A DNA stretch of 64,000 nucleotides, from NCBI RefSeq assembly GCF_003265365.1, contig NZ_AUPM01000031.1, forward strand, positions 1-64,000. Reading direction: 5' to 3'. The DNA is from Petrotoga sp. 9PW.55.5.1. GTDB taxonomy: Bacteria; Thermotogota; Thermotogae; Petrotogales; Petrotogaceae. The notes beneath the pieces are model-generated. The model worked only from the letters and a program-made list of their open reading frames with translations, searched no databases and was not told the origin of the DNA. Numbering within the stretch: position 1 is the first letter of the stretch; the number at the start of each line of letters is the position of its first letter. Both the position numbers and the translations under genes were made by a program. This document shows, piece by piece, positions 26,742-61,406 of the stretch.

Positions 26742-27716
26742 ATTACGAGATATTCTATTTCAATTCCTGAAAATGTAGAGCCTATTGAAATATTCGGGGC
26801 CTACGATAGTAGAACCAAATATCTTAAGAAAGAAATGAATGTGGATATTCATTATAAAAACAGGAAAATATACATAGAAGGCAAGGACGATGACTCGGTT
26901 AATACAACATCAAAAATATTCTCAGAATTGTTAGAAATTTTAGATGAGGGACATTTGCTTGATTGGGATGAGTTTCAATATGTTGTATCGAGATATAAAT
27001 CTAATGGAAATGGTCTAAAGACTGAAGAGAAACAAAAATCGATGAAAGAGGTAGTAAATACCTGTATCGTTGGAACAAAAATATTTGCCAAAACTGAAGG
27101 TCAAGCAAATTATATAGATTATTTGAAAAATAACGATATAGTTTTTAGTATAGGCCCTGCAGGAACAGGTAAAACTTATTTGGCTGTTGCAATGGCAGTT
27201 GATTATTTAAGATCAGGAAAGGTTCAGAGAATAATATTAACTAGGCCTGCGGTAGAGGCAGGAGAAAAGTTGGGGTTTTTACCTGGGAATTTTTATGAAA
27301 AAGTAGACCCTTATTTGAGACCGTTATACGATGCATTACTAGATTTTATGGATTCCGATAAGTTAGTTTCATATAGAGAAAAAGGTATTATAGAAATTTT
27401 ACCTTTGGCTTACATGCGCGGAAGAACTCTTAATAATTCATTTATTATATTGGATGAGGCACAGAATACAACCTATCAGCAAATGAAAATGTTTTTAACA
27501 AGGATAGGTTTTAATTCAAGAGTAGTTATTACAGGTGATATTACTCAAATAGATCTAGAAAAAAAGAAAGACTCAGGCTTGCTTTCTGTAAAAAAAGTAT
27601 TGGGGGAAAGTATTTCAGGGATAAAGTTTATAGAACTTTCAAACAATGATGTTGTAAGAAATCCTTTGGTTAAAAAAATCATAAGGGCCTATGAGGAATA
27701 TGAAAACGAAGGGTAA
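26742..27716 (+). CDS. phoH: PhoH-family ATPase, with a proposed AUU start
   Basis: 324 residues if begun at ATT 26742. Walker A GPAGTGKTY, Walker B FIILDEAQN and VITGDITQIDL identify the PhoH/YbeZ ATPase, a partner of YbeY in RNA metabolism; the next genes are pgpH-like and ybeY. The first ATG in frame is 26835, but the 31 codons before it encode SIPENVEPIEIFGAYDSRTK, which fits the conserved PhoH N-terminus. The frame has a stop at 26739-26741, then ATT, eight bases after AGGAGG (26728-26733). No ATG, GTG or TTG exists between. A one-base sequence error is the alternative. Confidence 0.85.
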   Translation: MTRYSISIPENVEPIEIFGAYDSRTKYLKKEMNVDIHYKNRKIYIEGKDDDSVNTTSKIFSELLEILDEGHLLDWDEFQYVVSRYKSNGNGLKTEEKQKSMKEVVNTCIVGTKIFAKTEGQANYIDYLKNNDIVFSIGPAGTGKTYLAVAMAVDYLRSGKVQRIILTRPAVEAGEKLGFLPGNFYEKVDPYLRPLYDALLDFMDSDKLVSYREKGIIEILPLAYMRGRTLNNSFIILDEAQNTTYQQMKMFLTRIGFNSRVVITGDITQIDLEKKKDSGLLSVKKVLGESISGIKFIELSNNDVVRNPLVKKIIRAYEEYENEG

Positions 27717-29564: not shown

Positions 29565-30800
29565 TTGGCAACAGTAAGACCATTTAAAGCATTAAGGCCA
29601 CATAAGGGGGTAGAACAATGTTTTTCATGTCCTCCATACGATGTACTAGAAGAAGAAGAGGTTCAAGAGATAATTCAGAGAAATCCCAATTCTTTTCTTA
29701 GAGTAACAAGATCTGAAGTAGAAGTTGGGCCTGACTCTTCAAAAGACAAAATATATGAAAAGGCTAGAGAAAATCTCAATTTTTTTATAAATAAAGGAAC
29801 ATTATATAAAGATGAAAATCCATCTTATTATATATATAGAGAAACTTGGCAGGGCATTTCTCAAACCGGTATTTTTGCTACCGTAAGTGTCGATGAATAC
29901 GATAAGGGAATAATCAAAAAACATGAATTAACAAGAAGAGATAAAGAAGAAGATAGGACTAACCATATACTTAAATTAAAAGCACAAACCGGACCAGTTT
30001 TTTTGACCTTTAAGACTGATCAAAAAGTAAAAAAAATAATCAATGATGCATTAGAAAACACGGAAATACTATATTGCTTTTCTGATGAAAAAAACGTTAC
30101 GCATGAACTATGGAAAATAGAAGATGAAAAGTTCGTAAAAGATATAGAAAACGCATTTAACCATATAGAAAATCTTTATATTGTTGATGGGCACCATCGA
30201 GCAGCGGCAGCGTCAAGAGCTCAAAAGATTATGAAAGAAAAAGATAACAACTACTCTTGCGAAAAAGAATACAATTTTTTTATGGCGGCAATTTTTCCTC
30301 ATGACGAATTAAGAATTCTTCCTTACAACAGAATTGTTAAAGATTTAAATGGTTTAAAGGTAGAAGAGTTTTTAAATAAAATATCTACTTCTTTTGATCT
30401 TGAAGAAGCACCAGTTTCTCCTTTTTCTCCCGATGCTCCCCATACTTTTGGAATGTACCTTCAAAAAAAATGGTATAAACTAACTTTCAAACAAGAAGTA
30501 AACGATGATCCCGTCGAAAATCTTGATGTTCAAATATTACAAAGAGAGTTGTTAGAGCCTATACTCTCCATAAAAGATCCTAGAACTGATTCAAGGATAT
30601 ACTTCTTAGGTGGAATAAGAGGTTTGAAGGAAATTGAAAAATGGGTTGACAAAAAAGGTTGGGCAGTTGGATTTTCCATGTATCCAACCCAACTTGACCA
30701 ATTAATGAAAGTTGCTGATATGAATAAAGTGATGCCTCCAAAATCAACCTGGTTTGAACCAAAATTGAGAAGCGGTTTGTTAATTCACCCGTTAGATTAA
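29565..30800 (+). CDS. DUF1015 family protein
   Basis: 411 residues. The N-terminal VRPFKALRP and PPYDVL, the middle YIVDGHHRAAAA (about 205-216), and terminal FEPKLRSGLLIHPL are the DUF1015 pattern. The DGHHR segment resembles the active-site motif of ParB/SerK-like nucleotide enzymes, so nucleotide or amino-acid phosphorylation chemistry is possible; I claim no function. No membrane segment. The start is TTG at 29565 after GGGGAGGAG, two bases past ybeY. Confidence 0.85.
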   Translation: MATVRPFKALRPHKGVEQCFSCPPYDVLEEEEVQEIIQRNPNSFLRVTRSEVEVGPDSSKDKIYEKARENLNFFINKGTLYKDENPSYYIYRETWQGISQTGIFATVSVDEYDKGIIKKHELTRRDKEEDRTNHILKLKAQTGPVFLTFKTDQKVKKIINDALENTEILYCFSDEKNVTHELWKIEDEKFVKDIENAFNHIENLYIVDGHHRAAAASRAQKIMKEKDNNYSCEKEYNFFMAAIFPHDELRILPYNRIVKDLNGLKVEEFLNKISTSFDLEEAPVSPFSPDAPHTFGMYLQKKWYKLTFKQEVNDDPVENLDVQILQRELLEPILSIKDPRTDSRIYFLGGIRGLKEIEKWVDKKGWAVGFSMYPTQLDQLMKVADMNKVMPPKSTWFEPKLRSGLLIHPLD

Positions 30801-30829
30801 TATTTTTCCTCTTTTAAGAGGTGATAAAT

Positions 30830-31366
30830 ATAAAATACTATAACTTTGATTTAACTAATAAAATAGAAGAGATTCAAACACACGCTGTAAATGAAAAAAT
30901 CGATTTGGAACAAGTAGTTAGATTTGGAAAAGATACATATGGTATTAAGAGAAGATGGAAAATTTTGTCTTCGCATAACTCAGTTGATTTTATAAAGCGT
31001 TTATTATCTCCAAAGGGTAATTTGATGCTAACTTATTACCGCGATAAAGAAGGAGAGATGTCGAATTACCTTATATATATTGATTTTGGAAAATATAATG
31101 TGTCTAATAACCTTATAGAATTTTATGACCAGGAATTAGATATAGTTATCTATAATAATTTAAAGTATAAAATTCTAGATATGGAAGAAACAATTTCAGC
31201 CTATGAACGAGGGGAAATAGCATTATCTGATCTTAGTGATATTTTAATCGATTTCGAGAATTTAGTCAATAATTTTAATTATTCAGGTATAATCAACTCT
31301 CTTTCCTTGAGATTTGGTGTAACTGCTATTAATTGGCTTTTGAAAAATGAGGTTTCTTTTATATAA
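30830..31366 (+). CDS. DUF402 domain protein, with a proposed AUA start
   Basis: 178 residues if begun at ATA 30830. YLIYIDFGKYN, then FYDQELDIVIYNNLKYKILDMEE and AYERGEIALSDL match the DUF402 fold, found in nucleoside di/triphosphate hydrolases and RNA-binding proteins; activity here is unknown. The only standard start is GTG 30821, which lies inside the Shine-Dalgarno GAGGTGAT (30818-30825). The leader GAGGTGAT-AAAT-ATA is the same as the plsY leader GAGGTGAT-AAAT-ATG except for the start triplet, and the response regulator gene has equal spacing. PspC follows after 32 bases. Confidence 0.75.
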   Translation: MKYYNFDLTNKIEEIQTHAVNEKIDLEQVVRFGKDTYGIKRRWKILSSHNSVDFIKRLLSPKGNLMLTYYRDKEGEMSNYLIYIDFGKYNVSNNLIEFYDQELDIVIYNNLKYKILDMEETISAYERGEIALSDLSDILIDFENLVNNFNYSGIINSLSLRFGVTAINWLLKNEVSFI

Positions 31367-37475: not shown

Positions 37476-38636
37476 CTATGAAATAACCCACATAAAAAAA
37501 GCAGCGATTGGAGCAATACTTAAATTGTCGTTTAACCAATTACCTAAACCTTCCATAACAGTCGCAGCTATCGCACCAACTATTAAAGCCAAATAAGTAA
37601 TTGGTATCCCAATTAAGTTCATATAGACTGCACCTGATGCTAAACAAATCATAAAACAAGCAATACTTCCCTCAATTGATTTTCCTTTTATCCATTGATG
37701 CTTTCCCCACTTTTTACCCACTAAAACAGCCCATGAGTCCCCCAAAGCTAACATTACAATAGAAATCAAGGAATAAGGAACAGGGAAAAGACCGGCTATA
37801 GCACAACCCATAAGAAAATAACTCGTCCCAGAAACATTGCTAGCTTCTTCACTTTTACTAACTGACTTAAAAATCTTTTTTAATATTCTATTAAGACTTT
37901 TTGAATATCTTCTAATTAATTCAAGAATAAGAGCTATTAAACCTGCTATCAAAACTATATATCTAAAAACTACTGGTCCCCAAAGTGGGTAAGCTAATGC
38001 AGGAAACAACAGTCCCATATATCTCCACAATTTTCTTCTAACAAAGTTATCCTTGAGCGGACCTTTTATATCTTCGAAAGATAATTTCAAATTTTTCCAA
38101 CCTTTAACGAACAACCAAGCAACCATAACGAGAGCAAAAATTGTACCCAATAAATTAATTGTTCCTCTTAAAAAACCAATCAAAATGACAAAAGGCCATA
38201 AAATTGATAGAACAAACATTATCCCTTTACCGAAAGTAAGCCACAGCGTTCCAGCAAATATTCCAAAAGCAGCAGATTCTAACGGGAACAATAAAACAAA
38301 AGATCCGACAGCCGCAGCAACACCTACGCCTCCCTTACCTCTCAGCCAAATTGAGTTAGAATGACCAATTATCGCAACTAATGCTAATAAAGGCCACCAA
38401 CTTTTTTCTAAGCTTAGTAGCATTCCAAATAAAATAGCTAAAATACCTTTAGTCGCATCTCCAGAAAAAGATAAAATACCTGCTATTGGTCCAGCTTCTT
38501 TCCAAGCATTTGTAGCACCTACGTTTTTTGTACCTACCTTTCTTAAATCTTTGCCAGAAAATACCTTTGCAAAGATATAACTCCATGGGACAGAACCTAT
38601 AAAATAGCTAACTATTAAAGAAATCATTAATTTCAT
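37476..38636 (-). CDS. plsY: PlsY acyltransferase fused to a CTP-dependent lipid kinase-like domain
   Basis: 386 residues. The first half (about 1-195) is PlsY, the acyl-phosphate:glycerol-3-phosphate acyltransferase: SYFIGSVPWSYIFAK, GTKNVGATNAW and GHSNSIWLRGKGGVGVAAAVG. The second half (about 200-386) is another multi-helix domain whose ALGDSWAVLVGKKWGKHQ...GKSIEGSIACF resembles the DGK1/SEC59/VTE5 group of CTP-dependent lipid kinases and cytidylyltransferases. PlsY alone is about 200 residues. Both parts serve phospholipid synthesis, the second by inference. GTG at 38645 is part of GAGGTGAT; ATG 38636 is the start. Confidence 0.85.
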   Translation of the reverse strand: MKLMISLIVSYFIGSVPWSYIFAKVFSGKDLRKVGTKNVGATNAWKEAGPIAGILSFSGDATKGILAILFGMLLSLEKSWWPLLALVAIIGHSNSIWLRGKGGVGVAAAVGSFVLLFPLESAAFGIFAGTLWLTFGKGIMFVLSILWPFVILIGFLRGTINLLGTIFALVMVAWLFVKGWKNLKLSFEDIKGPLKDNFVRRKLWRYMGLLFPALAYPLWGPVVFRYIVLIAGLIALILELIRRYSKSLNRILKKIFKSVSKSEEASNVSGTSYFLMGCAIAGLFPVPYSLISIVMLALGDSWAVLVGKKWGKHQWIKGKSIEGSIACFMICLASGAVYMNLIGIPITYLALIVGAIAATVMEGLGNWLNDNLSIAPIAAFFMWVIS

Positions 38637-55586: not shown

Positions 55587-56828
55587 ATAAGAAAAATTCT
55601 AATTATAAATATTTTACTAATTTTCATTTTTTCTTTAGTTTATGGTGGAACTACTTTAAGGGTAAATGGTTTTTTAAACTTATACAATAATGTATATCAA
55701 ACTGTTCCTTTCTATCGTTTTGTCAATTCAACAGAAGGAATAGGTTTGGATTATATAAAAGAATTACTATTGACCGATAAATATGTTCCAGAAGAAAAAG
55801 CAGAAGATTTTTTAAATTCTACTATAGTATTTTATTCTGAAAAAAACTATGATGTAAAAGAGTTATTTAATCCAAATTATTTCCTTCTTTTGTACGATTT
55901 GGTTATCAATTCAGAATCAATAGCTATATACTCTACAGAAAAAGAGCTTTTTGAAGATTTTTTTATAGGATTTTTCGGTGCTAAAAAGGTTAATGACAAT
56001 CTTTTTGTAATGGATGAAAAGAACTTTTATGTCCTAATGGAGCAAAATGGAATTTTTTTAAATATGGAACCTATTTCCAATAATGTTAAAAATGATTATA
56101 TTGTTTCTGGTTCCATTGATAACATTTTAAAGAATAACGATAGTTGGGAATTTTATATTGATGTAGAATCAAGAACAATTAATGCTAAATTTGTGTCTAA
56201 AGAATATAGAAGCTCAAAGAATCAATTTGGCTTAACCTCTTTAGAAAATAAAAAATTATTTGGAGAAGTTTTAGTCTTTGAAAGTGTAAACAGGAATGAT
56301 TTTAAAAATTTTTACACAAAGTTTTTTACCCCTCTTGATGAAGAAAGTGAAAAATCTATAGATTTTTTGAAAGAAATAATAAAAGAAGATGAATTTATTG
56401 TTGTTAGCTCTCAAAGTATAAATGAAAATGAATTAGTTTTGTTTGTTGAAAGTACATTGGATTCTGTGAAATTGAAGAAATATGCTGAAGAAAGAAGAAT
56501 GGAAGAAGGTAAAATAGGAACATATAATTACTATTTATGGTCTAAAGGTTCATACCCGAAAGAAATATATTTGTATTTTCAAAATGACGAATTAATTTTT
56601 TCAAATATTACTCCTGATAGAATGGGAATTTATTTGTCTGAAATGCCAAGATTCAAAAACACAAAGTATTTTGATCAGATTAAAAATAATCACCAATTTC
56701 ATAATATTACTATAATAGATCTTTCTAACTACATTTCAAAGAACTATTATGGTTCAGTTGATAGTTGGATTGTAAAAAGTGAGTATCTGGAAGATGATAA
56801 TTATACTTTAAAAATAAATATGAGATAA
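55587..56828 (+). CDS. secreted protein of unknown function, with a proposed AUA start
   Basis: About 413 residues if begun at ATA 55587. The first standard start in frame is TTG 55746, yet the frame before it encodes a complete signal peptide (RKILIINILLIFIFSLVYGG) and reads through without a stop. AGGAGG (55571-55576) lies ten bases before ATA 55587; ATA 55578 is the only other near-cognate but is too close. The mature part is acidic, with FLNSTIVFYSEKNYD and repeated Asp/Asn-rich strands, and has no family I know. It lies between a chemoreceptor gene and secA, so an envelope role is plausible. Confidence 0.7.
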   Translation: MRKILIINILLIFIFSLVYGGTTLRVNGFLNLYNNVYQTVPFYRFVNSTEGIGLDYIKELLLTDKYVPEEKAEDFLNSTIVFYSEKNYDVKELFNPNYFLLLYDLVINSESIAIYSTEKELFEDFFIGFFGAKKVNDNLFVMDEKNFYVLMEQNGIFLNMEPISNNVKNDYIVSGSIDNILKNNDSWEFYIDVESRTINAKFVSKEYRSSKNQFGLTSLENKKLFGEVLVFESVNRNDFKNFYTKFFTPLDEESEKSIDFLKEIIKEDEFIVVSSQSINENELVLFVESTLDSVKLKKYAEERRMEEGKIGTYNYYLWSKGSYPKEIYLYFQNDELIFSNITPDRMGIYLSEMPRFKNTKYFDQIKNNHQFHNITIIDLSNYISKNYYGSVDSWIVKSEYLEDDNYTLKINMR

Positions 56829-60483: not shown

Positions 60484-60511
60484 TTGATTTTCAGTAAAAG
60501 AGGTGTATAAT
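60484..60511 (+). promoter_or_regulatory. possible internal promoter before rsmH
   Basis: TTGATT (60484-60489), 16-base spacer, TATAAT (60506-60511). The -10 box overlaps the Shine-Dalgarno and proposed AUA start of rsmH, so only one of the two readings may be used by a given transcript. Confidence 0.45.
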
Positions 60512-61406
60512 AATAACAAGGAAGTACGATAGTTTTCACAAAAGTGTAATGGTGGAAGAGAGTCTTTCTTATCTAATTACAGAAAAAGAAGGAATTTATG
60601 TCGATTGTACTGCTGGTGAAGGCGGACATATTAAAGCGATCATGCAGAAATGTGAAAATAAGGCAAAAGTAATAGGTGTTGATATAGATTATGAGGTTTT
60701 GGAGATAGCGGAACAAAAACTGAAAGAAATTTCTAATAATATTACCTTAATTAAATCATCTTATAAAGATATAGATATGGTTTTAGGTGGATTAGGCATA
60801 AAACAGGTTGATGGTTTTTTAATGGATTTAGGAGTTTCCACTTTTCAGCTTAAAGGTAAAAACAGGGGATTTTCTTTTCTAGATGATGAAGAGTTAGATA
60901 TGAGAATGGATACAGAAGCCTCAAAGAATGCTGCTTACGTTGTTAATAATTATACTCAAGAAGAATTAAGGCGTATTATTTTCGAGTATGGGGAAGAAAA
61001 AAGATTTGCTAATAGCATAGCTAAAAGCATTTTGAAAAATCGTCCTATAAATACAACTCAAGAATTGGTATCAGCCATAAAAAAAGGACTCCCAAAATCT
61101 GAATTAGGGAATCGAAAAAGGCATTTTGCCACAAAAACTTTCCAGGCCATAAGAATTGAAGTTAATGATGAATTAAAGAATGTGGAGGATACACTTGCGA
61201 AATTCGAAAAATTTTTAAGAATCGGTGGAAGAGTAGTGATTATAACTTTCCATTCTTTGGAAGATAGGATAGTAAAAAATTTCTTTAAAAATAACAATAA
61301 ATACATTTTTATTACTCAAAAGCCTATATTACCTTCAAAAGAAGAAATAATAAATAATCCTAGAAGTAGAAGTGCGAAATTAAGAGTGGCGGAGTTTGTA
61401 GGATAA
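60510..61406 (+). CDS. rsmH: 16S rRNA m4C1402 methyltransferase, with a proposed AUA start
   Basis: About 298 residues from ATA 60510. The SAM-binding DCTAGEGGH (near 35), FLMDLGVSTFQLKGKNRGFSF, LDMRMD, and late RHFATKTFQAIRIEVNDEL and ITFHSLEDRIVKNFF identify RsmH (MraW). It methylates C1402 in 16S rRNA with high fidelity. The first ATG, 60549, would begin after the conserved His-x2-Val-Met (HKSVMVEESL) and has no Shine-Dalgarno. Upstream only ATA triplets at 60507, 60510 and 60513 follow GAGGTG (60500-60505); 60510 or 60513 fits best. ftsL and PBP genes follow, as in a dcw cluster. Confidence 0.85.
   Translation: MITRKYDSFHKSVMVEESLSYLITEKEGIYVDCTAGEGGHIKAIMQKCENKAKVIGVDIDYEVLEIAEQKLKEISNNITLIKSSYKDIDMVLGGLGIKQVDGFLMDLGVSTFQLKGKNRGFSFLDDEELDMRMDTEASKNAAYVVNNYTQEELRRIIFEYGEEKRFANSIAKSILKNRPINTTQELVSAIKKGLPKSELGNRKRHFATKTFQAIRIEVNDELKNVEDTLAKFEKFLRIGGRVVIITFHSLEDRIVKNFFKNNNKYIFITQKPILPSKEEIINNPRSRSAKLRVAEFVG

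Follow-up and report, generated by a model that had tools for sequence, protein, structure and literature searches.

Where does translation of the DUF402-family gene of Petrotoga sp. 9PW.55.5.1 begin? In the window, the whole 64-kb stretch of DNA analysed here, a gene finder that accepts ATG, GTG and TTG starts picks the GTG at 30821..30823 (+), and nine bases further on lies an ATA (30830..30832, +) at a normal distance from a Shine-Dalgarno (SD) sequence. Characterised bacteria seldom start a gene with AUA. The earlier note had proposed that the ATA is the start and that the leader before it equals the leader of plsY with ATA in place of ATG. This identity is exact. The DUF402 leader, GAGGTGATAAAT-ATA at 30818-30832 on the forward strand (full string GAGGTGATAAATATA), shares 14 identical bases with the plsY leader and start, which read GAGGTGATAAATATG, i.e. 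GAGGTGATAAAT-ATG, at 38648-38634 on the reverse strand. Within the window GAGGTGATAAATATR matches at the DUF402 and plsY genes and at no other site, and it was absent from all 100 shuffles. A second internal comparison is provided by the response regulator gene, whose leader GAGGTGATAATA-ATG at 37425-37411 (-) ends in ATG with the same SD spacing and thus shows the 12-base distance that had been claimed for it. Together with DUF402 and plsY, it makes up the three sites of GAGGTGATNNNNATR in the window (0.09 expected), all of the pattern GAGGTGAT-N4-ATR. The plsY gene itself (37479-38636, -) encodes about 386 amino acids. The match to the acyltransferase family covers no more than residues 9-183, and the product thus carries a C-terminal extension of about 200 residues beyond that match.

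The SD of the DUF402 gene, GAGGTGAT at 30818..30825 (+), is an 8-base match to the complement of the 16S 3' end; its aligned spacing to the ATA is 8, equal to that in plsY and in the response regulator gene, and its GAGGTG is kept in 6/6 congeners. It should be noted that the common leader is mostly SD consensus in AT-rich sequence. The leader match by itself is only suggestive of an AUA start, and it is the comparative data that decide. A hairpin, CCTCT-TTTA-AGAGG, can be drawn over the SD at 30808..30821 (+; z -2.1) in the organism's own species only, while none of the 5 congeners folds clearly better than shuffles at this place. A conserved regulator that sequesters the SD was therefore rejected, and the hairpin is probably incidental.

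Conservation of the ATA in relatives, which the earlier note had named as a check, was followed in 61 genomes, in 20 of which the DUF402 gene was found. All six genomes of the genus have ATA at the position of 30830, followed by AAA TAC TA(T/C), and the proteins of the other five congeners are about 65% identical to that of 9PW.55.5.1. In other genera and families, the 13 loci that can be aligned at the N-terminus (L007-L019) have ATG at the same codon, directly before a conserved K-x-Y; one more locus, L020, has ATG by reading, without a local alignment match. Conservation of the protein starts exactly at the ATA, with K2 and Y4 invariant in 12 aligned sequences. The constancy of the triplet is itself evidence of a start, because the third base of an internal Ile codon should drift. 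Among the Ile columns common to six species in six genes with AUA, AUU or AUC (AUH) starts, a single codon is kept in 33/99 (2/13 in DUF402), as against 6/6 genes for the start codon (Fisher p 0.002), although this test covers few genes, chosen by searching for AUH starts. In g3 and g7, the nearest genera, the search found no DUF402 gene, so its ATA has no AUU or AUC counterpart there. The AUA start is thus strongly supported by comparison of sequences, and the support comes more from the relatives than from the plsY match.

An error of sequencing or assembly that turned ATG into ATA, or a decaying gene, is suggested by the single base that separates the two triplets and by the 79-contig draft state of the genome, and is already refuted by the congeners, in which six independent genomes (one a single 2.17 Mb contig) carry ATA, each with an unbroken, conserved reading frame.

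Initiation at the GTG 30821 in the purine-rich stretch, with the ATA as an ordinary internal Ile codon, is highly unlikely. The GTG is chosen by a standard ORF finder and is in frame with the ATA in 6/6 congeners. However, a GTG within GAGGTG at such an SD spacing falls automatically in frame with the true start, as it also does in plsY and the response regulator gene, so that the frame lends no support to a GTG start. As the earlier note had observed, this GTG overlaps the ribosome-binding site: its bases belong to the SD, and its own SD would amount to no more than AAGAG. We judge it a non-start. The relatives speak against it as well. The congener locus L003 reads GTG GTA TAG ATA, and a GTG start is impossible there because an in-frame TAG stop separates the GTG from the ATA. 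Elsewhere in the genus the intervening codons vary (ATA AAT and GTA GTT in place of the GTA TAG of L003) and are not conserved as protein, nothing homologous lies 5' of the ATG in other genera, and the ATA shows stronger conservation than Ile codons within the coding sequence. Downstream of the ATA, the next in-frame start candidate is the TTG at 30905 (codon 26).

The supply of the AUA start by ribosomes that terminate on the upstream DUF1015 gene also has to be considered. The DUF1015 stop codon (30798..30800, +) lies 29 bases before the ATA on the same strand, and this short gap would permit such coupling. On the other hand, an M55 gene of the same genome, whose start is of the same type, has a TATAAT-like sequence before it instead. 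Further, coupling to DUF1015 would supplement the AUA start rather than replace the AUA. We regard coupling as the source of initiation as improbable.

Read from the ATA, the gene (30830..31366, +) encodes a 178-aa member of the DUF402 family (PF04167), with a match of 24.0 bits that is just above the gathering cut-off of 23.9. The protein also weakly matches the DUF402 structure 2p12 and SA1684 (7d8g). Although the family match is weak, a D/E-rich motif is common to the DUF402 protein and these members of PF04167, and Y83, D85, K88, D100, E102, D104, D117 and E120 are invariant in its relatives. SA1684 is a nucleotide phosphatase; the similarity of the DUF402 protein to it is only weak and distant, and the sequence assigns no activity.

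The DUF402 gene does not stand alone. AUH starts were sought by a systematic SD scan of the 64-kb window and of sampled stretches (about 572 kb of the organism's own genome), and three further genes of the window were found to have conserved ones by comparison with orthologues. The phoH-like gene (26742..27716, +) has at 26742 an ATT that is its only SD-placed start; the codon is ATT in 6/6 congeners and in G007 and G013 of genus g3, and ATA in G011 of genus g7; genus g6 has ATT or ATA at five loci, and the sister family has TTG. A standard caller would choose the ATG at 26835. The rsmH gene (60510..61406, +) starts with ATA at 60510 or 60513, whereas the standard caller chooses the ATG at 60549; the start is ATA in 6/6 congeners and, one codon further on, in G007 and G013, ATT in G011, and ATG, TTG or GTG in other genera. 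The third, an unnamed gene at 55587..56828 (+), has ATA in 6/6 congeners, in G007 and G013 and in G011; in G006, G008 and G009 an ATG lies close to this position. No Pfam or NCBIfam match was obtained for this gene; its N-terminus resembles a signal peptide. The comparison of DUF402 with plsY had been called the cleanest internal control for an AUA start in the window. The start it was meant to support is very probably correct, but the comparison is neither the only evidence of this kind nor necessarily the cleanest, as rsmH, the phoH-like gene and the unnamed gene also have conserved AUA or AUU starts.

The sampled stretches added further cases. In the same genome, the M55 D-aminopeptidase-like gene (L032:5515-6324, +), the one with the TATAAT-like sequence upstream, starts with ATA; the codon is ATA throughout the genus (g1), ATT in G007 and G013, ATC in G011, and ATG, GTG or TTG outside these genera. 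The gene for initiation factor IF3, infC (L040:4469-4990, -), has ATA behind AAGGAAGGTGAT, and its relatives have ATA or another AUH codon wherever the start is readable. The yqeK gene (L021:13809-14384, +) has ATA in the 9PW.55.5.1 species only and TTG in relatives, which implies that AUH starts can also come and go and arise recently. In both G007 and G011, an IclR-family regulator (L209:5578-6324, +), identified by Pfam, starts with ATT behind GGAAGGTGA; a first guess that it encodes CdaA was rejected on the same Pfam result. A lipase-like gene with ATT or ATA (L259:7379) was left out, a Met following 14 codons later. In G006, which belongs to another genus of the family, a gene beginning KERLDKYIV (L060:15106-15876, -) has ATA behind GAGGTGA and resembles TlyA.

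Among start regions without a competing ATG, GTG or TTG in g1 and g3, AUH codons are enriched 4 times behind strong SDs relative to ORF interiors, accounting for 21/66 non-canonical codons (p 4e-6, an optimistic value, since orthologues were counted more than once across the sampled genomes). Of the sequence sampled, 772 kb came from the genus (G000, 372 kb; G002, 400 kb) and 200 kb from G007. The same SD scan of 200 kb of G006 gave no AUH enrichment. A count of orthologue support (22/30 AUH codons vs 5/85 other codons) was discarded as evidence owing to bias, as a conserved internal Ile would also score. In several of the AUH genes the codon shifts among ATA, ATT and ATC between genera and is never ATG inside the core clade. 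Collectively, these sequence comparisons place DUF402 in a small set of genes with kept weak AUA, AUU or AUC starts, infC included; in rsmH, the phoH-like gene, the M55 gene, the unnamed gene and infC, too, the start codon lies behind a good SD.

One concern is that the AUA start may be real and yet carry no regulatory role, if start discrimination is relaxed in this lineage and AUH codons are tolerated in near-neutral drift. The occurrence of AUH starts in several genes unrelated in function, and yqeK with its ATA in one species and TTG in relatives, would fit such tolerance. However, for most of the AUH starts found, all species of g1, g3 and g7 that have the gene begin it with an AUH codon, and the third-base changes (ATA, ATT and ATC in the M55 gene, ATT and ATA in the phoH-like gene) remain within AUH, even though A to G is in general the most frequent substitution. 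Relaxed discrimination is also at odds with the initiation machinery. The initiator tRNA carries a CAT anticodon and a standard GGGCTCATAACCC stem-loop, and IF3 is a full-length, two-domain protein that aligns along its whole length with solved bacterial IF3s; a plain alignment revealed nothing unusual in it. A changed initiator tRNA and an altered IF3 were both rejected on these grounds as causes of the AUA start, and nothing in the sequence suggests a change of the genetic code or of a decoder. Relaxed discrimination without a regulatory role is possible, but we consider it less likely than not by a clear distance.

The reading we favour, with a probability of about 0.88, is that the DUF402 gene is translated from the AUA at 30830, an inefficient start read by fMet-tRNA that descends from an ancestral AUG and belongs to an IF3-discriminated class kept for low expression. 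A strong SD, at the spacing found in plsY, would set the AUA in the P site, where the ordinary fMet-tRNA (anticodon CAU) would read it with a third-position mismatch, giving a protein with the expected N-terminus fMet-Lys-Tyr-Tyr. The change from the ancestral AUG to AUA would have taken place on the stem branch leading to the genus, and the AUA would have been kept since as a weak start that holds expression low. AUG, GUG and UUG are canonical since IF3 does not discriminate against them, their 3'-G allowing them to escape, while AUU, AUC and AUA are discriminated (review, PMC4611024); by this definition the DUF402 AUA falls in the discriminated AUH class. We infer the use of fMet, the low yield, the sensitivity to IF3 and the selection for low expression, and control by the level of IF3 would follow in the same manner. 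The moves among AUA, AUU and AUC without AUG in the clade fit selection for an IF3-sensitive class, though the changes are few and yqeK shows turnover; selection for AUH is not proved, because starts of the yqeK type come and go.

The closest precedents are infC and two genes of S. aureus. The infC gene starts with AUU in E. coli and with AUA in S. aureus, and forms a self-regulating loop via its own product. Like DUF402, infC (with AUU, AUA or AUC starts) has an AUH codon behind a strong SD that is conserved across relatives. DUF402, in contrast, is not an initiation factor, so that any effect of IF3 on it would be exerted in trans. In S. aureus, infC, ccpN and cvfC1 have conserved AUA or AUU starts with extended SDs that are in use, and in poor medium reporters of ccpN, cvfC1 and the strain-limited citZ yielded about 10% as much as with AUG, ccpN reaching up to 30% in rich medium (PMC13009471). 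The ccpN, cvfC1 and citZ starts resemble that of DUF402 in having AUA or AUU behind a long SD, and those of ccpN and cvfC1 are conserved between species (PMC13009471). It should, however, be noted that the S. aureus starts were shown experimentally, in other genes and another phylum, while those of Petrotoga are deduced from sequence; Petrotoga also differs in having several AUH genes within one 64 kb window. A further parallel is pcnB of E. coli, which PMC13009471 cites as having an AUU start; its poor start is thought to limit expression, as proposed for DUF402, but the codon is AUU rather than AUA and the gene is unrelated. By analogy with these systems, the DUF402 AUA may be read by fMet-tRNA inefficiently and rescued by its strong SD.

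A search of open-licence papers found no earlier report of a conserved AUA start outside infC for the phylum, which is weak evidence of novelty. The present case is a well-supported example of a conserved AUA start in a gene other than infC. It also points to an entire group of such starts in one lineage, and this group is of more interest than DUF402 alone. A tentative and rather unlikely extension is that unrelated genes (DUF402, rsmH, the phoH-like, M55 and unnamed genes, infC and others) have selected AUH starts with translation set jointly by the level of IF3, forming a regulon beyond infC in Petrotoga and neighbouring genera, with perhaps dozens of members per genome. For annotation, gene finders restricted to ATG, GTG and TTG misplace AUH starts, choosing a GTG within the SD for DUF402 and, in rsmH and the phoH-like gene, an ATG that comes too late, and N-termini in Petrotogaceae may therefore be wrongly annotated. 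If AUH starts persist because they make expression low or dependent on IF3, they would raise the question of whether bacteria control genes beyond infC via IF3.
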